From contig NZ_JACVZV010000012.1 of the NCBI RefSeq assembly GCF_014654725.1, forward strand, positions 1 to 64,000: 64,000 bases of DNA, given 5' to 3'. The DNA comes from Vulcanococcus sp. Clear-D1. GTDB taxonomy: Bacteria; Cyanobacteriota; Cyanobacteriia; PCC-6307; Cyanobiaceae. The position numbers were made by a program, and so were the translations under genes. Position 1 is the stretch's first letter. Each line of letters opens with the position of its first letter. Shown here one piece after another: positions 1,250 through 22,760 of this stretch. The notes under the pieces are model-generated. The model did not search any database and had not been told where the DNA came from. It worked only from the letters and a program-made list of their open reading frames with translations.

Positions 1250-2203
1250 TTGAGCAGGCTGGCCACCATCTGGGCCATCTTCCAGGGGCTGCTGCTTGAG
1301 GCGCTTCCCTTTCTGCTGATCGGCGTTCTAATCGCAGGGCTGGCCCGCTGGATCGCCCCAGGAGGTCGTTGGCTGCAGCGGTTACCCAGCCAGCCGTTGC
1401 TGGCTCCGCTCACCGGCGCTGCCCTGGGCTTTGCGCTGCCAGCCTGCGAGTGCGGCAATGTGCCGGTGGCGCGGCGGTTGTTAGCCGGCGGCGCACCGCT
1501 GGGCTCCGCCCTGGGCTTCCTCTTCGCCGCGCCGGTGCTGAATCCGATCGTGCTAGCGAGCACCTGGGCCGCCTTCCCGGATCAGCCCTGGCTCCTGGCG
1601 GCGCGCCCAACCGCTGCCCTGTTGCTGGCCCTCGCCCTCTCTGCCCTGTTGCAGCAATGGCCGGAAGTCCAACTGCTTGAGCCGGCTCTTCTGGAGGAAC
1701 GGCGCCTGAGTCAGCCCCTGGCTGAAGTGGGGCTCCTGGAGCGTCGCAGCGGCCTGGTGGGGGCAGCGCCAGTAACGGCGCCACCGACGCCGGAGCGACC
1801 AAACCTGGCCACTGTGCTGGAGCACAGCAGCCGGGAATTTCTCGATCTAGCAGGGCTGCTGGTGCTGGGTAGTGCCCTGGCCGCTGTGGTTCAGACCCTG
1901 CTGCCCCGCACCTGGTTACTGGCGGTGGGAGGAGCTCCCACCATCTCCGTGCTCAGCCTGATGCTGATGGCTGTGGTGGTGTCGGTGTGCTCCAGCGTGG
2001 ATGCCTTCCTCGCCTTGGGGTTTGCCGCTCAGATCACCCCTGGCGCGCTGTTGGCCTTTCTGGTGCTGGGGCCCGTGGTGGATCTGAAGCTGTTGGGCTT
2101 GTTTGGTGTGGTGCTGAAGCCGCGGGCGATTGCGCTCACGGCGGCGGGTGCCTGTGTGGTGGTGCTGCTGATCGGGCAATGGGTGAATCTCTGGCTGCTT
2201 TGA
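1250..2203 (+). CDS. DUF318/YraQ-type membrane permease
   Basis: A 317-residue polytopic membrane protein of the DUF318 permease family. The family signature around a Cys pair (ACECGNVPVARRLL) is near residues 65-78, with its partner half (VCSSVDAFLALGF) near residue 245. About eight hydrophobic helices flank a central hydrophilic loop. Members are linked with export or handling of metals and metalloids, and often sit beside a TIGR03943 (DUF1980) protein, as here. The next gene starts 25 bases before this one ends, so translation is likely coupled. TTG at 1250 is used because no in-frame ATG covers the first helix. The context of Zur, Znu and COG0523 suggests zinc, which is inference. Confidence 0.8.
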   Translation: MSRLATIWAIFQGLLLEALPFLLIGVLIAGLARWIAPGGRWLQRLPSQPLLAPLTGAALGFALPACECGNVPVARRLLAGGAPLGSALGFLFAAPVLNPIVLASTWAAFPDQPWLLAARPTAALLLALALSALLQQWPEVQLLEPALLEERRLSQPLAEVGLLERRSGLVGAAPVTAPPTPERPNLATVLEHSSREFLDLAGLLVLGSALAAVVQTLLPRTWLLAVGGAPTISVLSLMLMAVVVSVCSSVDAFLALGFAAQITPGALLAFLVLGPVVDLKLLGLFGVVLKPRAIALTAAGACVVVLLIGQWVNLWLL

Positions 2204-2850
2204 TCCGCCCGCTCGCCCTGGCCCTCTGGGGTGCTGTGCTGCTGGTGAGCACCCTCACAAGCCGGCTCGAGTTGCTGCTGCGCGGGGTGTTTCATCCGTT
2301 GGTGGGGCTCAGTGGCGTGGTGCTGCTGGCGATCGCCCTGCAACAGGCGCTGCAGGGCAGGCGCGAGCGGCACTGGAACCGCAGCTGGGCCTTGAGCGGC
2401 CTGCTGGCGATCGCCGTGCTGCTCCTGCCGCCGAATCCCTCATTCAGCGATCTGGCCTCCAACCGCAATAGCGATCTCGGCAGCGACGTGGAGCTGGATT
2501 TCCTGCTGCCGCCGGGCCAGCGCAGCCTCACCGACTGGGTGCGACTGCTGCGCAGCCAGCCCGACCCGCAGCTTTACAACGGCGACCCCGTGCGCATCAG
2601 CGGTTTTGTGCTCACGCAGCCGGATGGCCCACCCCAACTCGGGCGCTTGCTGGTGCGCTGCTGCCTGGCCGATGCCACACCGATCGGGCTTCCCGTGCGC
2701 TGGCCCAGTGGCTTCAGCGCACAACCCGACCAATGGCTGGCGATCGAGGGCCGCATGGGCGTGGACAACGTGGCCGGACAGCAGCGCAGCGTGGTGCTGC
2801 CGGAGCGCATCCGCACGATTCCGCGGCCCGCCAAGCCGCTCGAGCCATGA
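2179..2850 (+). CDS. TIGR03943/DUF1980 family protein, partner of the DUF318 permease
   Basis: A 223-residue protein with two or three N-terminal membrane helices followed by a soluble domain. In that domain, DPVRISGFVL and LVRCCLADATPIGLPV match the C-terminal beta-rich part of TIGR03943 proteins, annotated elsewhere as the second subunit of a two-component membrane permease complex. The CC pair near residue 152 is a typical family feature and may bind metal. ATG at 2179 lies inside the upstream permease gene, and the stop overlaps the next ATG as ATGA. The three genes therefore form one translation unit. Confidence 0.78.
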   Translation: MGESLAALIRPLALALWGAVLLVSTLTSRLELLLRGVFHPLVGLSGVVLLAIALQQALQGRRERHWNRSWALSGLLAIAVLLLPPNPSFSDLASNRNSDLGSDVELDFLLPPGQRSLTDWVRLLRSQPDPQLYNGDPVRISGFVLTQPDGPPQLGRLLVRCCLADATPIGLPVRWPSGFSAQPDQWLAIEGRMGVDNVAGQQRSVVLPERIRTIPRPAKPLEP

Positions 2851-4160
2851 ACAAACCAGCTCTGCTGTTGGCCGCGGGAGCGCTGCTGGCCCTGGTGCAG
2901 CAGCAGCTCTTGCTTCAGCGCCCACCAAGATTGCTGGAGCTGCACTCGAGCACCGCCAGCTCAGGCCCGGCCGCCCTCTCGCTGCGCTTCAGCCGCCCCA
3001 TGGATCGGGCCAGCTTGGCGGAGCGCAGCCAACTGCAGCCGGCCTTGCCCCATCAGTGGTTAGGCGCGAACAATCCCCTAAGGCTGCTGCTGGGCGCCAA
3101 TCAACCGATCACCGGGGCCATCCAGCTGCTGATCAGCGGGGTGGATCAACGGGGCCTGGCTCTGCGGCCCCAGCGCTGGAGCTGGGACCCAAGACCGCGG
3201 CTGCTGGCGGTGGTGCCCAAAGGCAGCGGTGAGCAACTGCAACTGCTTCAACGCGATGGCAGCTGGCAGCCACTCAGCCCCGAATTCGAGCGGATCACCG
3301 CGGTGACTCCGCTGGGGGATGGATCGGCCATCGCCCTGGCCAGCCGCGATGATCAAGGTGAGCGGCTGTGGCTGCTGCCGCTGGAGCAGAGCACCCTGCA
3401 GCGTGGCGGCCAACCGGGCAGCCGCGCGGTGAAGGCTGGCCCGCTTCGGGCGCTGTTGCCGGAGCGTTTGATCTTCACCCACCTGAGCAGCAACCAGCGC
3501 GGCGATCTGCTGGTGCAGTGGAGTGCCCAGGCCCTGGGCCGCTCGATCACCAGCTTCTGGCCGCGCCAGGGCAACCGCCAGCAACTGGAGCTGGAAGCCT
3601 CCGGCCCCATGCAGCTGCTGCCCGACGGTGGCGCTCTGGTGATGCCTGAGCTTGAGGGGCTGAGCCTGCGCAACCTGCCCGGTCGGCCCGAGCGCCGCCA
3701 GCTGCTGCCAGGCAGCCGCGATCTGAGCAGCTTCTGCCCAGTGAGCGGGCGGGCGCTTCTGGTGCGGCACTGGCCCGATTTCCGGCGCTCCCTGGAACTG
3801 GTGGAACCCGGTCAGCCGCCACGCCAGCTGTGGCTGGGCGGTGATGCGGTGCTGAGCACGGCCTGCGATCGCGGCGGTGAACGGGTGTGGCTGCTGGTGA
3901 GCCATTGGCGCGATGCCCAGCGCAGCAGGCTCCTGGAGATCACCCGCCTAGGACAGATCGTGCGGGCACGAGACCTCACGGGCTGGGAGGTGGAACCCGG
4001 CGTGCCGATGGCCTATGACCCCACGCGTCAGCAGCTGCTGCTCACCCTGCGACAACAGGGGCGCCCCGACGCGCAACCGGTGTTGATCGCGGTGCGAGAT
4101 CTAACGCTGCAGCCGCTGGCGAAAGCGGTGCGGCAGGCCCTCTGGCTACCGCCTGGTTAG
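2847..4160 (+). CDS. Exported protein with Ig-like N-terminal and propeller-like repeats, unknown function
   Basis: A 437-residue protein I do not recognise as a named family. Residues 1-22 form a hydrophobic signal or anchor. Residues 40-115 contain ALSLRFSRPMDRASL, the hallmark phrase of a bacterial Ig-like (Big_5) domain. The rest consists of short repeats of the type DGSAIALASRD..GERLWLLPL, suggesting a TolB- or WD40-like beta propeller facing the periplasm. It is joined by ATGA overlap to the TIGR03943 gene, so it is probably a third component of the permease system. Its 3' end overlaps the convergent znuB gene by 15 bases. Function is inferred from context only. Confidence 0.65.
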   Translation: MNKPALLLAAGALLALVQQQLLLQRPPRLLELHSSTASSGPAALSLRFSRPMDRASLAERSQLQPALPHQWLGANNPLRLLLGANQPITGAIQLLISGVDQRGLALRPQRWSWDPRPRLLAVVPKGSGEQLQLLQRDGSWQPLSPEFERITAVTPLGDGSAIALASRDDQGERLWLLPLEQSTLQRGGQPGSRAVKAGPLRALLPERLIFTHLSSNQRGDLLVQWSAQALGRSITSFWPRQGNRQQLELEASGPMQLLPDGGALVMPELEGLSLRNLPGRPERRQLLPGSRDLSSFCPVSGRALLVRHWPDFRRSLELVEPGQPPRQLWLGGDAVLSTACDRGGERVWLLVSHWRDAQRSRLLEITRLGQIVRARDLTGWEVEPGVPMAYDPTRQQLLLTLRQQGRPDAQPVLIAVRDLTLQPLAKAVRQALWLPPG

Positions 4161-4937
4161 CTGCAGCGGCAACAGCAGCAGACACAGCACCCCGATCAGC
4201 GGTCCGGGCGGCAGGTTGATCCAAGGCTGGATCGCCAACAACAGGCCTCCACCGCTGAGCAGCATGCCGAGCAGTGCGGATCGCCACAGGGCCTGGCGGA
4301 GGCTTGTTGCTCCCGGCAGCGCCAGCAAGGCAGGAGCGCCCATCAAGCCGATCACCAACACCACCCCAACGGCAGTCATGGCACTCACCACCGTGAACGC
4401 TGTGACCAACGTGAGCAGCAGCCGCAGGCGCCGCACCGGCAGCCCGGCACTGGTGGCGCCTAGGGGATCAACCCCCAGGTAGACGTAATGGTGATACCGC
4501 CAGAACAACAGCAGCAGCATGGCCAGCAGGGCCAGAAGGCTGCGCGCGAGGTCGGCTGGTGCTGCAGCGAGCAGATCACCAAACAGCACAGCCTCCAGAT
4601 CCACACGGATGCCCAGCAGGGGAATCAGCAGCACCCCCAAGCCCAGAAAGCCAGCCAGCACGGTGTTCAGCACGGCTTCATCGCCCGGTTGTCCTGGGCG
4701 TGAGGCACCGCTGAAGCGCTCCGCCAGCAGGGCACCCGCCAGGCCGCTGATCGCACCCCCCAATCCCGGATCGATGCGGAGAGCCACCGCCAGGGCGAGA
4801 CCGGGGAGCACGGCATGCGACACCAGGTTCACCAGAAACAGGCGCCGCTGCACCAGCAACACGGTGCCCGTGAGCGGGCAAAGCCCACCCACCACCAACG
4901 CCACCGCGAGCGGCAGCAGCCACCACACACGCTCCAT
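4146..4937 (-). CDS. znuB: Zinc ABC transporter permease ZnuB
   Basis: A 263-residue ABC-3 family membrane permease with about eight helices. The family phrases GTVLLVQRRLFLVNLVSHAVLPGLAL near the N-terminus, AVLFGDLLA in the middle and VVSAMTAVGVVLVIGLMGAPA toward the end are all present. It forms the channel of a Zn(II)/Mn(II) importer working with the ZnuC ATPase and the ZnuA binding protein found nearby. It starts at ATG 4935-4937, 32 bases from the divergent zur gene. The znuC gene is on the same strand but on the far side of zur, so znuC and znuB are separated by an antisense gene instead of being adjacent. Confidence 0.88.
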   Translation of the reverse strand: MERVWWLLPLAVALVVGGLCPLTGTVLLVQRRLFLVNLVSHAVLPGLALAVALRIDPGLGGAISGLAGALLAERFSGASRPGQPGDEAVLNTVLAGFLGLGVLLIPLLGIRVDLEAVLFGDLLAAAPADLARSLLALLAMLLLLFWRYHHYVYLGVDPLGATSAGLPVRRLRLLLTLVTAFTVVSAMTAVGVVLVIGLMGAPALLALPGATSLRQALWRSALLGMLLSGGGLLLAIQPWINLPPGPLIGVLCLLLLPLQLTRR

Positions 4938-4969
4938 AGGATCAGGGCCCCCGCCCCGCTGGTTCGGCC

Positions 4970-5371
4970 ATGCCCTCCCAGGTTGCCGCCTCAGGTGATC
5001 GCCAGCTGCTGCTGCTGGAGCAACTGAAGCTGGCCGATCGGGAACTCTCCGGCCAAGACCTACACGCCCTTCTGCGCCAAAGCCCCCAGGCCATGGGACT
5101 GGCCACCGTGTACCGGCACCTGCGCCAGCTGCAGCAGCGGGGCTTGATCCGCTGCCGCCATCTCCCAAGTGGCGAGGCCCTGTTCGCGCCGGTGGAGCGC
5201 GATGAGCACCACCTCACCTGCGTGGATTGCGGCACCACCCTGGTGCTGGAGCACTGCCCGATGCACAACGTGGAGTTGCATGGCGATCAGGCGGAGGGGT
5301 TCCAGTTGCTGTTCCACACCCTGGAGTTCTTTGGGTTGTGCCGCAGCTGCCAGAACCGCCAGAACGCCTAA
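4970..5371 (+). CDS. zur: Fur-family zinc uptake regulator, probably Zur
   Basis: A 133-residue Fur-superfamily repressor. A winged-helix DNA-binding half (GLATVYRHLRQLQQRGLI, about residues 43-60) precedes a dimerisation and metal-binding half. The structural zinc Cys pairs are C84/C87 and C124/C127, and H80-H81 are possible regulatory ligands. Its position among znuA, znuB and znuC identifies it as Zur rather than Fur or PerR, and a second Fur-like protein is encoded at 12265-12747. Zur normally represses zinc uptake genes when zinc is replete. Its stop overlaps the convergent znuC stop as CTAA, and its start faces znuB. Confidence 0.85.
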   Translation: MPSQVAASGDRQLLLLEQLKLADRELSGQDLHALLRQSPQAMGLATVYRHLRQLQQRGLIRCRHLPSGEALFAPVERDEHHLTCVDCGTTLVLEHCPMHNVELHGDQAEGFQLLFHTLEFFGLCRSCQNRQNA

Positions 5372-6075
5372 CCGCAGCAGTGGTTTCCAACCCGCAGATC
5401 GCCCAGGGCCTGGCGCACCTGTTGAGGGGTGCCATCGGCCAACATCTGACGATCGAGCACCAGCACCCGGTCGTAGGCATCGAGGTCGCGACCCCAGTCA
5501 TGGCTGCTCACCAGCAGGGTGAGCCCGGCATCACTGAGCTGACGCATCACCCGCAGCAACTCCGTGCGCGATGGCGGATCGATCGCTGCGCAGGGTTCAT
5601 CCAGCAGCAGCAAGCGAGCCGGTTGCACCAGGGTGCGCGCCAGCAGGGCACGCTGCTGCTGACCACCAGACAACTGATCGAGACGACGCCCGGCCAGCCC
5701 CACCAGTCCAACCCGCTGCAGCGCCGCCTCCACATCGCAGCAGCCCGGGCGCTGACCGGCCAAGCGCCCGAGCGCCACCAACGCCCGCACGGTGATCGGA
5801 AAGGCCCAGGCGATCTCACCGCGCTGGGGCATCAGGGCGAGCTGCTGCCGCGCCAGGGCAGGCGTGAGGGGGATGCCCTCCCAGGTGATCGAGCCACTCG
5901 CAGGGCTCAGTTGCCCCTCGAGGGCCTGCAGCAAAGTGCTCTTGCCTGCTCCATTGGGTCCCACCAGGGCGGTGAGGCTGCCGGGCTGCAGCGTGAAGGA
6001 GAGCTGATCGAGCACCAGCTCCGGCCCGCGGCGCACACACAGCTGATGAACGCTGAGCACCGCAGCAGGCTTCAC
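5368..6075 (-). CDS. znuC: Zinc ABC transporter ATP-binding protein ZnuC
   Basis: A 235-residue ABC ATPase with Walker A GPNGAGKST (residues 39-47), signature LSGGQQQR, Walker B LLLLDEP and a switch His in LVSSHD. It powers the Znu metal importer. GTG at 6073-6075 is the likely start because it gives the usual short N-terminus before the first strand (VLSVHQLCVRRG). The reading frame stays open further upstream but that stretch is not ABC-like. It runs divergently from the porin gene at 6133 with only 57 bases between, so the two probably share a promoter region. I could not find a convincing Zur palindrome in that gap. Confidence 0.88.
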   Translation of the reverse strand: MKPAAVLSVHQLCVRRGPELVLDQLSFTLQPGSLTALVGPNGAGKSTLLQALEGQLSPASGSITWEGIPLTPALARQQLALMPQRGEIAWAFPITVRALVALGRLAGQRPGCCDVEAALQRVGLVGLAGRRLDQLSGGQQQRALLARTLVQPARLLLLDEPCAAIDPPSRTELLRVMRQLSDAGLTLLVSSHDWGRDLDAYDRVLVLDRQMLADGTPQQVRQALGDLRVGNHCCG

Positions 6076-6132
6076 TCCCTCCAAGTTAAAGAGCAGTCGC
6101 GCTTGAATCGAGGCGCAGCCAGAGCCCCATCG

Positions 6133-7617
6133 ATGTTGCGCCCCATCGTTGCCCTGATGGGAGGCATCGCCCTGCTGGGGGCATGGGCAGATTCCCCTGC
6201 GGCGCAAACAGAGGCCCAACTACTGCAGCCGGAAGACTGGGCGTACCAACGGCTGAACGCCCTGCAGGTGCAGCACGGCTGCTCCACAGCCGCCTCAGAC
6301 GAGAGGCTGAACCAGGGATTACCGATCTCTCGTTTCAGCGCTGCCACACTGCTTCAGGCCTGCCTGCCGCACCTCAACGGCAACACGCCCGAACTGGTGC
6401 TGTTGCTGCGGCAGCTCGAGCAGGAGCTCCAGCTACTGGATCAACGCCTGGAAAACCTGGAGGCCACCCAGTTTTCTCCCACCACCAAGCTCAAGGGCCT
6501 CGCCAGCCTGGTGCTCGGCGGCAACCGCTTTGCGGGCAGCGACAACGCCGTGGTGAGCGCCAGCCGCTCCAACTACGGCGCCACCACCTTCAACTACGAC
6601 CTCAAGCTCTACCTCGACACCAGCTTCACGGGACAAGACCTTCTGCGCGCTCGCCTGCGCGGTGGCAATTTCGATCGAACGAGCAACAGCTTCTACGGAG
6701 CCGGTCCCAGCAGGTTATCCATCCTGGAAACAGCCTTCCAGGAGCAGTCGGGTCCCGACAACTTCTCTGTCAACAGGCTGTACTACCAGTTCCCCCTGGG
6801 CAGGGGATTCACGGCGAGCTTTGGACCGCGGGTCGGTCAGCTGGATCTGTTAGCACTGCGGCCCAGCCTTTACCCCGCTGAAACCATCCTCGATCTGTTT
6901 ACGCTCAAGGGAGCACCCGCGGCCTACAACTTCAAGCTGGGCGCGGGTGCCGGGTTGTGGTGGCAATCCCCTGGTGGGTTCAGTGTGAGCGCCAACTATG
7001 TGGCCGGTCATGGACGCGATGGGAATCCCAGCCAGGGAGGCATCGGCACCGCCGATTCAGCCAGCACAGGCAGTGTGCAACTCGCCTACAGAAAGCAGCA
7101 GTGGGCCGCGGCGGCGGTGGTGAGCTCCGTGCAGAACCTGGGCGGGGTGATTCCTTATGCCACCAATTTCACCCTGGACAGCCTGAAAAACCCCGGGCAA
7201 ACCATGGCCTTTGGTCTGAGCGGCTATTGGCAACCACGGCAATCCGGCTGGGTGCCCTCGATCAGTGCCGGCTGGGGGTTCAACCGCACCCATTACACCT
7301 CGGAAGTCGAGCAGCAGGGCCTGGTGGCCAATAGCCAGTCGTGGAGTGTGGGCCTGCAATGGCAGGATGCCTTTGCCCCTGGTAACGCCCTGGGCATGGC
7401 TGTGGGCCAGCCGATCTTTGCCACCTCGCTGTATGGGGGCGAGACCCCTCGCGATGGCAACTACGCCTGGGAATGGTGGTACAAGCTGCAACTGAGCGAC
7501 AAGATCGCTGTGACCCCGGCGCTGTTCCTGCTCAGCCGGCCGCTGGGTGCAGAAACCACCGAAGGTGAAACCTTTCGGCAGATCGGCGCCCTGCTCAAAA
7601 CAACGCTGCACTTCTGA
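6133..7617 (+). CDS. SLH/OprB-type porin linked to zinc uptake genes
   Basis: A 494-residue outer-membrane porin. A signal peptide ends near AWADSPAAQ, followed by a shortened SLH-like segment (EDWAYQRLNALQVQHGCS ... ISRFSAATLLQACL), a coil rich in L, E and Q, and the cyanobacterial porin barrel beginning ATQFSPTTKLKG and ending with aromatic F (TTLHF), typical of barrel proteins. Its SLH part lacks the YPDGTYRG-like core seen in the porin at 1-535. It lies between znuC and znuA, which suggests a metal-limitation porin that raises outer-membrane permeability when zinc is scarce. The substrate is inferred. ATG at 6133 gives the expected signal peptide. Confidence 0.85.
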   Translation: MLRPIVALMGGIALLGAWADSPAAQTEAQLLQPEDWAYQRLNALQVQHGCSTAASDERLNQGLPISRFSAATLLQACLPHLNGNTPELVLLLRQLEQELQLLDQRLENLEATQFSPTTKLKGLASLVLGGNRFAGSDNAVVSASRSNYGATTFNYDLKLYLDTSFTGQDLLRARLRGGNFDRTSNSFYGAGPSRLSILETAFQEQSGPDNFSVNRLYYQFPLGRGFTASFGPRVGQLDLLALRPSLYPAETILDLFTLKGAPAAYNFKLGAGAGLWWQSPGGFSVSANYVAGHGRDGNPSQGGIGTADSASTGSVQLAYRKQQWAAAAVVSSVQNLGGVIPYATNFTLDSLKNPGQTMAFGLSGYWQPRQSGWVPSISAGWGFNRTHYTSEVEQQGLVANSQSWSVGLQWQDAFAPGNALGMAVGQPIFATSLYGGETPRDGNYAWEWWYKLQLSDKIAVTPALFLLSRPLGAETTEGETFRQIGALLKTTLHF

Positions 7618-7630
7618 GAACCATTATCGT
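7615..7630 (+). promoter_or_regulatory. Putative Zur box upstream of znuA
   Basis: TGAGAACCATTATCGT overlaps the porin stop codon and lies 24 bases before the znuA start. It fits the Zur/Fur-like pattern GAnAA-N3-TTnTC with four of five symmetric pairs intact (GAGAA / TTATC). This would let Zur control znuA separately from the upstream porin. The match is by eye against the general cyanobacterial TGATAATnATTATCA-type consensus. Confidence 0.5.
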
Positions 7631-7653: not shown

Positions 7654-8634
7654 ATGCGGCGAACCGCGGCGGTGCTGGTGGGAGCCCTAGCTCTGGCGGC
7701 AGTCCAGGCCTGCGACCCAGGCTCCCGGGTGGACGTGATCGCCGCCGATGGCGCCCTCTGTGACATCACCCGGCGACTGGCCGCAGACGACCTGAGGGTG
7801 GACTGCCTGCTGGGCCCGAACGACGACCCCCATCAGCTGCAGCTCACGCCCGCGCAAACCCGCCAGATCAACCAGGCCCAACTGGTGTTGATCAACGGCT
7901 ACGGACTCACCCCAGCCCTCAACAGACTCAGCCGGGCCGTGAAGGTGGCGGAGATCGCTGTTCCGAACAGCCCCAAGCTCAACAATGGAGGCCAGACCGA
8001 CGGCCACAGCCACAGCGAGCACGCCCACAACGCCGAGGGAGAAGACGAAGCGGCTCACGTGCATGGCGATCAAGATCCTCACGTGTGGCACGACCCACGC
8101 CAAGCTGCAGCGATGGTGGAGCTGGTGAGCAACAAGCTCGAGCAGCTCAATCCACAGGCCGCTCCGCAGATCCAGCAACGAGCCAAGGCGATGCAAGGCA
8201 GCCTGATCGCCCTCGATCGCTGGAACCACCAGCAATTCAGCACGATCCCGCCGCCGCGCCTGCTCGCCAGCGGTCACCGAGCCTTCGCGAGCCTGGCCAG
8301 GGCTTATCAACTTCAGGAGCTGCCAGTGGTTGATGCCACGAGCACGAGCGAGGCGCTAAGGCCACAGGCCCTAGCCAACGTGGTGGCCGCGCTGCGCAAC
8401 CAGCGCGTGCGCAGCCTGTTCGCCGAACAGATGCCTGCCAGCAAGGCACTGCTGCGAATCAGCAGCCTCAGCGGCGTTCCGCTCGCCAGCCAACCCCTGC
8501 GGGCCGACTCCGCCGGCGACAACTTGATCACGACCCTCACCACCAACACCTGCCTGATCGTGGATGCGCTTGGGGGGCGGTGCGACCAAGCCGGTGGCAA
8601 CACACTCGCCGCGACCTGGAACGCCATCCGATGA
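7654..8634 (+). CDS. znuA: Zinc ABC transporter substrate-binding protein ZnuA
   Basis: A 326-residue cluster A-I (TroA-like) solute-binding protein. A signal sequence ends at AVQAC, a possible lipobox with Cys20 as the lipidated residue. Conserved pieces are DDPHQLQLTP (first metal His), a His/Asp/Glu-rich loop near residues 115-142, QDPHVWHDPR (second His) and ASGHRAFASLARAY (third His). The loop is the usual mark of zinc rather than manganese proteins. It captures periplasmic Zn(II) and passes it to ZnuB. A Zur-like site lies just upstream. Confidence 0.9.
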   Translation: MRRTAAVLVGALALAAVQACDPGSRVDVIAADGALCDITRRLAADDLRVDCLLGPNDDPHQLQLTPAQTRQINQAQLVLINGYGLTPALNRLSRAVKVAEIAVPNSPKLNNGGQTDGHSHSEHAHNAEGEDEAAHVHGDQDPHVWHDPRQAAAMVELVSNKLEQLNPQAAPQIQQRAKAMQGSLIALDRWNHQQFSTIPPPRLLASGHRAFASLARAYQLQELPVVDATSTSEALRPQALANVVAALRNQRVRSLFAEQMPASKALLRISSLSGVPLASQPLRADSAGDNLITTLTTNTCLIVDALGGRCDQAGGNTLAATWNAIR

Positions 8635-8758: not shown

Positions 8759-8896
8759 ATGGCTCAGCAGATCGGCTGCCACAGTGATGAAGCGCCCAAC
8801 AAGCGCACCGCCACAGATCAGACCAAGAAAAAAGGCTGCAAGAAGAACAAGTGCTCCCACTGGAAGGGCGGCCAGTGCCGCTGCGGCCGCGACTGA
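8759..8896 (+). CDS. 45-residue Cys-rich basic protein next to znuA, unknown
   Basis: A small reading frame with ATG at 8759 and TGA at 8894-8896. The product is strongly basic and has five Cys (7, 27, 32, 40, 42) plus His8 and His34; the C-terminal half (CKKNKCSHWKGGQCRCGR) resembles a metal-binding knuckle. It does not match the classic SmtA metallothionein pattern. The position after znuA and before ferritin fits a metal-binding role. TTGATTCTCAA (8728-8738), a short inverted repeat, lies 20 bases upstream and could be a weak Fur/Zur-type half site. The ferritin gene converges on it, leaving seven bases. Reality of the gene is likely; function is unknown. Confidence 0.6.
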   Translation: MAQQIGCHSDEAPNKRTATDQTKKKGCKKNKCSHWKGGQCRCGRD

Positions 8897-10138: not shown

Positions 10139-11302
10139 GTGACCGCCAGCGCGACCGACCTCGCACCCGATTCCTCTACCCAGGCCAGCCCACTCCCGGT
10201 GACGATCCTCACCGGCTTCCTCGGGGCAGGCAAGACCACGCTGCTCAACCACATCCTCAGCAACCAGCAGGGCGTGAAAACGGCTGTGCTGGTGAATGAA
10301 TTTGGTGAGATCGGTATCGACAACGATCTGATCATCGCCACCGGCGAAGACATGGTGGAGCTGAGCAACGGCTGCATCTGCTGCTCCATCAATGGAGAGC
10401 TGCTCGATGCGGTGTATCGGATCCTCGATCGCCCGGACCCGGTGGATTATCTGGTGGTGGAGACCACCGGCCTGGCGGACCCCCTGCCCGTGGCCATGAC
10501 CTTCTTGGGCAGCGATCTGCGCGATGACACCCGGCTCGATTCGATCATCACCCTGATCGATGCGGAGAACTTCAGCGACGAGATTCTCGATGGCGAAGTG
10601 GCCCGCGCTCAGGTGGTGTATGGCGACATCCTGCTGCTCAACAAGTGCGACCTGGTGAGCGAGGAACGCCTAACGGAGGTGGAAGGCCGGTTGCGGGAGA
10701 TCAAAACCGACGCCCGCATCCTGCGCTCGGTGAAAGGCGACGTGAGCCTGCCGCTGCTGCTGAGCGTGGGGCTGTTTGAAAGCGACAAGGTGGCCGCAGA
10801 GCAAAGCCACGACGAGTGCGATCACGACCACGGCCACTGCGTGCATGACCACGGGCATGAACACGGGCATGACCACGCGGATGGTCACCAGCACGAGCAC
10901 CACGACCACAGCAACTGCGATCACGACCACGGCCATTGCGAGCATGACCACAGCCATGACCACGGCAACGGTCATCCGGATCACCTGGCGATCGAAGGCT
11001 TCACCTCGCTCTCGTTCAGCAGCGAAGGCCCCTTCGCCCTGCGCAAGTTCCAGAACTTTCTCGACAACCAGCTGCCCGCCGGCGTATTCCGCGCCAAGGG
11101 CATCCTCTGGTTCAACGAGAGCGACAAGCGCCACGTGTTCCACCTGGCCGGCAAGCGCTTCTCGATCGACGACAGCGAATGGGGCTCAGCCGCCGAGCGC
11201 AAGAACCAGCTGGTGCTGATCGGCAAGAACCTCGACCATCCCCAGCTGCGCAAGCAGCTCCAGGCCTGTGTGGCTAAGGATGCAGGCAAAGGCTTCGCCT
11301 GA
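10139..11302 (+). CDS. COG0523 (CobW/ZNG1-like) metallochaperone GTPase with His-rich loop
   Basis: A 387-residue G3E P-loop GTPase. Walker A GFLGAGKTT starts at residue 26, the metal-binding CxCC motif (CICC) is at residues 79-82, and the guanine-specificity motif NKCD is near residue 177. A long insert of about 60 residues built from repeated HDH/HEH/DHGH units (about residues 222-282) precedes the C-terminal CobW_C domain. Such proteins deliver Zn(II), or Co/Ni, to client enzymes under limitation. Gene neighbours (zur, znuABC) favour zinc, and the neighbouring B12 riboswitch keeps cobalt open. GTG at 10139 gives a short unstructured lead before the first strand. Confidence 0.9.
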   Translation: MTASATDLAPDSSTQASPLPVTILTGFLGAGKTTLLNHILSNQQGVKTAVLVNEFGEIGIDNDLIIATGEDMVELSNGCICCSINGELLDAVYRILDRPDPVDYLVVETTGLADPLPVAMTFLGSDLRDDTRLDSIITLIDAENFSDEILDGEVARAQVVYGDILLLNKCDLVSEERLTEVEGRLREIKTDARILRSVKGDVSLPLLLSVGLFESDKVAAEQSHDECDHDHGHCVHDHGHEHGHDHADGHQHEHHDHSNCDHDHGHCEHDHSHDHGNGHPDHLAIEGFTSLSFSSEGPFALRKFQNFLDNQLPAGVFRAKGILWFNESDKRHVFHLAGKRFSIDDSEWGSAAERKNQLVLIGKNLDHPQLRKQLQACVAKDAGKGFA

Positions 11303-11319
11303 AGCGATACTGCAGACAG

Positions 11320-11455
11320 CGGTTCCCCGGAATCAGCCCGGGGAGGCAACGAGGAAAGACCGGTGCAGGGCCTTCGTCCCACTCCGGCACTGTCCCGCAG
11401 CTGTGATGAAGCCAGCCCCTGCTCGCCTCTCAGTCAGAACGCTCGCCGCTCCCTG
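11320..11455 (+). ncRNA. Cobalamin (B12) riboswitch upstream of hupE
   Basis: The leader between the COG0523 gene and hupE has the conserved core of the cobalamin riboswitch: a GAGGAAAG-type segment near 11350, GGTG near 11362, ACTCCGGCACTGTCCCGC followed by CTGTGA (11381-11406), and a B12-box-like AGTCAGAACGCTCGCC (11432-11447). Such elements bind adenosylcobalamin or related forms and shut expression of the downstream gene when B12 is plentiful. The end points are approximate. The downstream gene is a HupE-type transporter, consistent with cobalt uptake for B12. Confidence 0.85.
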
Positions 11456-11497
11456 CACGATTCACCCCCTCAGCACCGGCGCGGACCGGCCCTGCCC

Positions 11498-12138: not shown

Positions 12139-12285
12139 TTGGCCGATCTGCTCCTTCTGACTGCAGTCATCACCCTGGCCGGCCTGATTGCCTGGCTAGC
12201 TGCCGGATCCGACGACGACAACGGTGGTGGCGGCCTGATGCAGCCCGTGCTGGTGCCCGTGCGTTCAAACCGTTACCGGGGCTGA
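12139..12285 (+). CDS. Small single-helix membrane protein, hypothetical
   Basis: A 48-codon frame from TTG at 12139. One strongly hydrophobic helix (ADLLLLTAVITLAGLIAWLA) is followed by an Asp/Gly-rich turn and a short basic tail (PVRSNRYRG). The composition looks like a genuine one-pass membrane peptide. It overlaps the convergent fur gene by 21 bases. No ATG start is available and no family is recognised. Confidence 0.45.
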   Translation: MADLLLLTAVITLAGLIAWLAAGSDDDNGGGGLMQPVLVPVRSNRYRG

Positions 12286-12747
12286 TTCCGCAGCTGAGCA
12301 ACGCGGGCAGAGCGCACGCACGTTCAGAACGCACTCCAGCAAGCGGAATCCATGCAGGCCTGCCGCCTGCTCCCCAGCCGAAAGCACGGCTTCGCTCTCA
12401 AATTCTTCGGTGTGACCGCAGCGCACACACACGAGGTGGTGATGGTCACGGTGGTCGTCGTCGCTCGCCAGTTCGAAGCGGCGTCCGCCTTCCGGCAACT
12501 CCAGCTCCCGCAGCAGTTCCATTGAACTGAGCAAGCGCAGGGTGCGATACACCGTGGCCAGAGAAACACGCTCCTCAGCACGCAGCAAGCGCTGATGCAC
12601 TTCTTCAGCGCTGAGGTGGGTGCCTTCGCCCAGACGTTCAAACAGGGCTAACACGCGCTGACGCTGCGGTGTCAGCCGCTGGCCACGGCCATGGAGACTG
12701 CTGCGCAGCGCCTCAGCGGGGAGATCAGGCGCCGGGACGGCAGGCAT
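12265..12747 (-). CDS. Fur-family regulator (Fur or PerR)
   Basis: A 160-residue Fur-superfamily protein distinct from the Zur at 4970-5371. The DNA-binding half carries GQRLTPQRQRVLALFERLG and SLATVYRTLRLL. The metal half has an extended His cluster HRDHHH (residues 99-104) and Cys pairs C107/C110 and C147/C150. The His cluster and length fit Fur-type iron sensing, but PerR cannot be excluded from sequence alone. ATG at 12745-12747 starts the conserved part; upstream in-frame codons are not family-like. It is 22 bases after the UPF0104-like gene and probably the last gene of that minus-strand operon. Confidence 0.82.
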   Translation of the reverse strand: MPAVPAPDLPAEALRSSLHGRGQRLTPQRQRVLALFERLGEGTHLSAEEVHQRLLRAEERVSLATVYRTLRLLSSMELLRELELPEGGRRFELASDDDHRDHHHLVCVRCGHTEEFESEAVLSAGEQAAGLHGFRLLECVLNVRALCPRCSAAESAPVTV

Positions 12748-21513: not shown

Positions 21514-22760
21514 ACCCCATCGATCCGCTTGTGGCCAGACGCCGCGGCAGCGCCCGTCTGGCCACAGCTGTGGCTGGTGCGCTCGCCTTGTTGGCGTTCC
21601 TCGGACGCAGCAGTGATCCCGCCGCGCAACCCCTGAGCCCAGCGGCTCCGCTCAAGCTTGGCGCAGCTCTGGCCCTCACGGGCAATGCGAATCTCTACGG
21701 CCAAGACCAGCGCATGGGCATCAGCCTGGCGCAGGCCTGGCTGCAGGCTCAGCCACACCCCCGCCCGGTGCAGCTGCAACTAGAGGACGGCGCCTCCGAT
21801 GAGCCCAGCGCCATCGCGGCCTTCAACCTGCTCATCCGCCAGGGGGTGATCACCTTGATCGGCCCCACCCTCTCGCAGCAAGCCTTCGCCGCCGACCCGA
21901 TCGCCCAGCGCCAGGGGGTGCCGGTGGTGGCACCCTCCAATACGGCCAAGGGCATTCCCCAGATCGGTTCGTTCATCAGCCGCGTCTCAGCGCAGAGCTC
22001 GGTGATCGCACCGCTCTCGATCGATGAGGCCCTGCGCCGCGAACCCGGCACCCGCCGCGTGGCCGTGTTCTTCGCCCAGGACGACGCTTACAGCACAGCC
22101 GAAACGGCGATTTTCCAGAAAGTTCTGGCTGCGCGGGGCCTGAAGCCGGTGAGCGTGCAACGCACCCAGCTGGCCGATAACGATTTTCAAAACCCGATCA
22201 CAGCTGCGCTGCAGCAGCGGCCGCAGATCGTCGTGATCTCAGCCCAGGCCGTGGATGGCGGCAACCTGATCCGTCAGCTGCGGGAGCTGGGGTACCGCGG
22301 CCAGATCGTGGTAGGCAATGGCCTCAATACCCCAAACATCTACCCGATCTGCCAGCGCTGGTGTGATGGCGTGCTGATCGCCCAGGCCTACAGCCCGGAG
22401 CTCAACACCCCGGTGAACCTCGCCTTCCGGCGCCTGTTCGCCGACGCCAACCAGGGCCGCACCCCGGGCCAGATCGCGGCCCAGGCCTGGACTGCCTACC
22501 AGGTGGTGTTTGAAGCGATCCAGCGGGTGCAGAAGCGCGGCGGGTTTGAGGGCCTGACCCTGGGCGACGCTCGGCAGCAGCTGATGCAGGAACTTCTCAA
22601 CGGCCGCTACAACACCCCCCTGGGACCGATCCGCTTCCGCCCTGACGGTGAAGTGGTGCAGGGGCGTTTTTATGTGGCCCAGGTGCGCATGGATGCAACC
22701 GGGCGCAGCGGCCGCTTCACCCTGGTGCGCGAGCAGGAGCTCCCGGAGGATGCGCCGTGA
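21492..22760 (+). CDS. Liv/Nat-type ABC transporter periplasmic binding protein
   Basis: A 422-residue type I periplasmic binding protein (Peripla_BP_6). A signal sequence ([17 protein letters not shown]) is followed by [23 protein letters not shown], then the ligand-binding core with [23 protein letters not shown] and [12 protein letters not shown]. Family members bind branched-chain or neutral amino acids; the ligand is not determined here. ATG at 21492 lies within hemL; GTG at 21531 starts right before the basic n-region and is an equally good choice. It leads a five-gene operon with both permeases and both ATPases. Confidence 0.85.

Follow-up and report, generated by a model that had tools for sequence, protein, structure and literature searches.

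A zur-type gene lies antisense between znuC and znuB in Vulcanococcus and many other Cyanobiaceae: a probable novel form of noncontiguous operon

In the genome of Vulcanococcus sp. Clear-D1 (assembly GCF_014654725.1), two genes of a putative zinc importer, znuC and znuB, are separated by zur, a gene for a FUR-family protein that lies between them on the opposite strand. We analysed this locus in the first 64,000 nucleotides (nt) of contig NZ_JACVZV010000012.1, and this whole stretch of DNA is called the window here. The permease gene znuB (4146-4937, minus strand, ATG at 4937, stop codon at 4146) and zur (4970-5371, plus strand, ATG at 4970, TAA at 5371) start back to back with 32 nt between them (4938-4969). 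At its other end, zur overlaps the ATPase gene znuC (5368-6075, minus strand): the TAA of zur and the TAG of znuC (5370-5368) share the 4 nt CTAA (5368-5371). These coordinates bear out an initial annotation, made from the letters of the window, which had described zur as filling the space between the two minus-strand genes, with overlapping stop codons on one side and starts 32 bases apart on the other. The GTG start that it had given for znuC (6075) is probably five codons too far upstream, because a stop codon precedes the conserved part of znuC in the relative L115 and the conserved N-terminus fits a start at GTG 6060.

ZnuB matches the ABC-3 permeases (PF00950, E 6e-40), ZnuC the ABC ATPases (ABC_tran, E 2e-31) and the product of the nearby gene znuA (7654-8634, plus strand) the substrate-binding proteins (PF01297, E 1e-49), a combination at one locus that characterizes ZnuABC-type metal importers. 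Zur matches the FUR family (PF01475, 2e-16), and its top sequence match in the PDB is 7ne9 (5e-50 over 125 residues), which we take to be SynZur of Synechococcus WH8102; it is thus a FUR-family protein close to the Zur of that strain. The E. coli-type equivalog cut-offs of NCBIfam are not reached by Zur (PRK11639, 25 bits versus 167) nor by ZnuB (63.7 versus 284), ZnuC (102 versus 306) and ZnuA (54.7 versus 268). Zinc would be the substrate of the importer, judging from Zur and from the Zur box described below.

The sandwich, as we call the order znuC> <zur znuB> with zur on the opposite strand between the other two genes, is not peculiar to one genome. We looked for Zur and, separately, for ZnuB in 121 genomes of the family Cyanobiaceae and read the gene order around the matches by tblastn; the surroundings of zur in 20 of 96 further genomes and 18 further ZnuB places were added. 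The same order and orientations recur at 71 loci in 68 genomes in a set (L035-L174 and the window) that leans towards zur-bearing loci, most regions having been chosen by a zur match. Other loci of this set comprise 16 with znuC and znuB side by side, one second znuB beside znuA (L086) and one sandwich (L144, 5276-7328) in which an insertion carrying a Mutator-family transposase gene (PF00872, 1e-132) interrupts zur. Fourteen of the 18 later regions have znuC and znuB adjacent (L299 repeats part of L042), two contain a partial znuB alone (L297, L300) and two only distant paralogs (L301, L302). In a second, ZnuB-anchored set of named organisms, the best 80 of 334 relatives, which overlaps the first set, the sandwich is present in 54 of 80 loci, 25 are contiguous and one is cut by a contig end. 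Judged by title, 27 of the 30 Prochlorococcus records carry it, as do 27 of 47 further ones, among them Synechococcus WH 5701, Vulcanococcus limneticus and Cyanobium usitatum. Nearly all readable loci without the sandwich have znuC and znuB adjacent, mostly on one strand, and the Prochlorococcus contig QCFI01000028.1 contains a sandwiched and a contiguous copy together (L284, L260). At the 54 loci first measured, with start codons chosen by script, the gap between the zur and znuB starts is 31-71 nt. At their 3' ends, zur and znuC are spaced by -32 to +27 nt, a distance into which a terminator would hardly fit, if at all.

An order-level search returned only the same family, and outgroups were therefore taken from class-level searches. 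There, nine of 17 loci have znuC upstream of znuB in the same orientation, and a zur match is absent from all 17. The nine loci with both genes have 151-314 nt between the tblastn matches, a spacing of matches only, as small open reading frames (ORFs) in these gaps were not searched for. Among the outgroup matches listed, inspection by eye revealed no genome in which a Zur-like gene lies 1 kb or less from a ZnuB. On a tree of ZnuB and ZnuC with 107 rows, made by a quick method, with several long branches and without the 18 later regions, the distribution of the sandwich requires six state changes, at least five of which are forced by starred branches; 47 of the 48 rows of a large AT-rich clade keep the arrangement. 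The simplest reading is one gain followed by several losses, because the outgroups are contiguous and the orientation of zur is constant in the sandwiches; the tree alone cannot separate gain from loss.

The order seen here, with an oppositely oriented gene between the genes of a presumed operon, is that of a noncontiguous operon. We infer, with somewhat better than even confidence, that znuC and znuB form one such operon, whose transcript would run antisense through the whole of zur. In the GC-rich loci, the distribution of promoter-like elements points in this direction. We divided the 71 sandwich loci into 24 GC-rich and 47 AT-rich ones and used TANNNT as the -10-like hexamer. Such a hexamer precedes zur within 60 nt in 23 of 24 GC-rich and in all 47 AT-rich loci, and its position is conserved: TAGGAT or TAAGAT lies 32-35 nt before the ATG in 22 GC-rich loci, and in 42 of 47 AT-rich loci the distance is 36-40 nt. 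In the window this element is TAGGAT (4937-4942, plus strand), which overlaps the complement of the znuB start codon by a single base. Its position is unchanged in three loci where the znuB start is elsewhere (L053, L065, L167), and the hexamer therefore belongs to zur. For znuA we found a hexamer in 22 of 24 GC-rich loci. Upstream of znuC, the distance from a hexamer to the Walker A codon is 127-137 nt in all 23 readable GC-rich loci (L039 has no Walker match), a near-constant spacing that argues for a znuC start further downstream than the query-defined one. The corresponding, positionally conserved element of the window is TAACTT (6083-6088, minus strand), a candidate promoter on condition that znuC begins near 6060.

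For znuB the picture is different. No hexamer occurs within 150 nt upstream of this gene in any of the 24 GC-rich loci, nor does the minus strand between znuC and znuB contain a TANNNT in the window or in any other of these loci, which favours read-through from znuC. On the same strand between both genes, terminator-like sites number five in 71 loci versus 13.3 in shuffles. The initial annotation had left two routes for znuB, a joint transcript with znuC or a promoter of its own in the 32 bases or inside zur; the GC-rich loci favour the first, and the AT-rich loci, with a hexamer upstream of znuB in 42 of 47, cannot decide. Two scans of the window between 3900 and 8800 are uninformative on their own: no site fits a consensus sigma-70 promoter, with 0.2 expected, and five terminator-like sites, none of them between znuC and znuB, compare with 3.2 expected. 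The zur gene itself is free of antisense TANNNT in GC-rich loci, versus a mean of 12.2 in synonymous shuffles. Special selection against antisense promoters in zur was nevertheless rejected, as znuA, znuB and znuC are equally depleted.

We also searched for Zur boxes, using a matrix for a 7-1-7 box that was derived from the znuC-upstream boxes of some of these loci, with a cut-off of at least 13 bits. In the window, the box TGAGAACCATTATCG (7615-7629) overlaps the znuA -10-like element TATCGT and the stop codon of a porin gene (6133-7617, plus strand; OprB, NCBIfam por_somb, iron-uptake-type), which lies between znuC and znuA both here and in the three nearest relatives of the window (L155-L157). 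The box of these relatives likewise stands between porin gene and znuA, and neither they nor the window have one at znuC. Across the family, a box precedes znuC in 55 of 71 sandwich loci (12 of 24 GC-rich, 43 of 47 AT-rich), a count that is partly circular owing to the origin of the matrix, and in six of 16 contiguous loci; ten of 710 random segments reach the same score. The gap between zur and znuB contains no box in any of the 71 loci, even at 10 bits or more, and this zero is not circular. A znuB-specific Zur box was consequently rejected. Direct repression of znuC and znuB by Zur is not evident in the window genome, but is plausible in the AT-rich loci, because 43 of 47 of them carry a box upstream of znuC. 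At three loci (L120, L123, L135) the box precedes znuA; in L120 (3754-6477) one box is followed by znuA, an outer membrane-like ORF and znuC, closely packed in the same orientation, and then by antisense zur and znuB. A palindrome seen by eye in some AT-rich gaps was dropped as it does not fit the 7-1-7 box, and so was a box-like match at 22175 that lies, by eye, inside an apparent coding region for a substrate-binding protein.

If znuC and znuB do form a single noncontiguous operon, transcription would begin at the znuC promoter or further upstream, pass antisense through zur and continue into znuB. The zur gene would be read in the opposite direction from its own promoter, whose -10 element in the window lies at the znuB start codon. 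If read-through occurs, zur is wholly antisense to the znuC-znuB RNA; the two RNAs would then be complementary over zur, where opposing polymerases would meet, and an RNA duplex, polymerase collision or a regulatory effect might result. Where znuC carries a box, as in most of the AT-rich loci of Prochlorococcus type, the transcript repressed by Zur would be the one that runs against zur itself, and a zinc-gated double-negative loop would result. In the clade of the window, with its only box at znuA, the antisense arrangement might act without direct control of znuC and znuB by Zur.

Several points weigh against this reading. The hexamers of znuC count only if the gene starts downstream of its query-defined start: with an 18-nt limit from that start, only seven of 24 GC-rich loci have one, and a looser count of 23 of 24 took in hexamers closer than 18 nt. 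TANNNT is generally avoided in the coding DNA of these loci, so that only the contrast with the upstream regions of other genes, and not bare absence, is evidence. The hexamer test can also miss promoters, as neither the porin gene nor the ArsP-type permease gene of the window has a hexamer in 200 nt. Among the sandwiches, the AT-rich loci with a hexamer before znuB run counter to read-through, and the Zur box is missing before znuC in the window and its nearest relatives. The arrangement has changed state at least five or six times on the tree, two AT-rich genomes absent from the tree (G031, G073) have only a contiguous znuC-znuB with zur elsewhere, and the loci counted are related to one another.

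Three alternatives have to be weighed. The strongest accepts a noncontiguous transcript but gives the antisense overlap no regulatory role, so that the order would be a relic of genome compaction; we regard this as quite possible, at somewhat less than even likelihood. It fits the repeated changes on the tree, the zur interrupted by a transposase gene in L144 and the boxless znuC of the window clade. It does not readily explain why the large AT-rich clade has kept the order in all rows but one, G031 and G073 aside, nor why other orders of znuC and znuB are rarely seen.

Alternatively, znuB could have a weak or non-canonical promoter of its own, in the gap or in the 5' end of zur, in which case znuB would diverge from zur in the usual way without depending on the znuC promoter, and znuC would form a unit by itself. 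The AT-rich hexamers and the hexamer-free porin and ArsP-type genes speak for this option, as does Synechococcus WH8102, where znuB is nearly flat at low zinc (1.4-fold, P 0.83) despite rising with its cluster in a zur mutant, the locus tags of znuB and znuC being consecutive (PMC9337993). However, the AT-rich hexamers of znuB are scattered and share a position in at most 11 of 47 loci, in contrast to the zur hexamer of the same loci, the GC-rich loci have none, and znuB mostly follows directly on znuC where zur is not between them. A separate znuB promoter therefore appears rather unlikely to us.

The third alternative is the mutual exclusion of uptake and repressor that the initial annotation had proposed, in which znuC-znuB transcription would lower zur RNA and zur transcription would lower znuB RNA, as a zinc-tuned switch. 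In Fur-family sensors, the activity of Zur is mainly governed by zinc binding, and changes in zur RNA may matter little if this holds here; the boxless znuC of the window clade also argues against such a switch. The full antisense overlap, if read-through occurs, the boxes upstream of znuC in AT-rich loci and the mutual control described for noncontiguous operons (PMC7154746) support the proposal only in part, and we hold it to be unlikely. Unlikely, too, is the wider scenario that Prochlorococcus and its relatives keep the repressor antisense in the operon it represses and that uptake transcription and repressor silence each other in a zinc-gated toggle widely retained in the family.

Noncontiguous operons and excludons have been described before (PMC7154746). 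In the menE-menC-MW1733-ytkD-MW1731 operon of Staphylococcus aureus, as in our reading of znuC and znuB as one operon, a gene on the opposite strand lies between the operon genes; its mRNA overlaps fully and mutual control is described. Co-transcription is indicated there by transcriptome data and here proposed from sequence, and the available text does not call the inner gene a regulator of the operon, whereas here it encodes the zinc repressor of the same pathway and recurs in many species (PMC7154746). The excludon likewise involves overlapping RNAs of neighbouring opposite-strand genes, as predicted here, and the concept includes repression of one RNA by the other, which this locus would have to share to count as one (PMC7154746). 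In Dickeya dadantii, vfmE lies inside indC-vfmAZBCDFG, one of 83 such units, presented as a potential noncontiguous unit, and a native RNA read across the neighbours of vfmE is reported (PMC9239193). Like zur, vfmE belongs to the system in which it lies antisense and would act on the expression of the unit; the authors propose a negative feedback, in which a rise in vfm RNA would lower vfmE and thereby vfm itself, while a repressor in this place would give a double-negative loop (PMC9239193).

Among cyanobacteria, Synechococcus WH8102 has the same kinds of Zur, ZnuB and ZnuC and a Zur box between znuC and znuA, but its zur (synw2401) lies elsewhere and not between znuC (synw0970) and znuB (synw0969) (PMC9337993). 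In a zur mutant of this strain, expression of the cluster goes up, znuB included, with znuA as a more sensitive responder than znuB or znuC (PMC9337993). Synechocystis PCC 6803 is similar by description, with zur (sll1937) within the znuABC cluster (slr2043-2045), whose promoter is placed upstream of sll1937; the available text does not describe zur as parting znuC and znuB (PMC12058595). We found no literature report of zur between znuC and znuB in picocyanobacteria, an earlier mention being possible.

Noncontiguous operons are known from few transcriptome studies, and what would be new here is a repressor inside the operon of its own pathway, retained widely. We therefore consider the locus a probable novel form of noncontiguous operon, with co-transcription proposed from gene order and promoter-like sites. 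If this is true, one of the most abundant photosynthetic lineages would possess an operon that encloses the repressor of its own pathway. Relatives with zur inside, relatives with zur elsewhere and znuC adjacent to znuB, and genomes with both types of copy form a natural comparison, and this variation in the position of zur makes a possible regulatory use of antisense gene order directly testable.

The neighbourhood of the locus contains further genes of potential interest. A plus-strand run of an ArsP-type permease gene, a TIGR03943 gene and an unknown ORF (1250-4160) leads towards znuB and ends convergently on it. At 14 loci without znuB in this place, as judged by eye (for example L037, L054 and L139), zur directly follows that unknown ORF on the same strand, and two series of genes (1250-4160 on the plus strand and 4146-5371) therefore look interleaved on opposite strands in the window. 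The genome has four FUR-family matches, including one in the window (12265-12747, minus strand) and others on contigs C24 and C15. The protein on C24 is 52% identical to Zur and is encoded beside cobW-, znuA- and znuC-like genes with a Zur-box-like site (L113). Downstream of znuA, a cysteine-rich ORF of 45 amino acids (8759-8896, plus strand) has no Pfam match and possibly encodes a small metal-binding protein; its identity is 70-84% in L115 and L155-L157 and about 51-57% in L054, L139, L141 and L162. Also near znuA lies a gene for a CobW-type (COG0523) GTPase with a long histidine-rich stretch (10139-11302, plus strand), and a cobalamin riboswitch (11303-11464, plus strand; RF00174, 49.6 bits) precedes a gene for a HupE/UreJ-type membrane protein.

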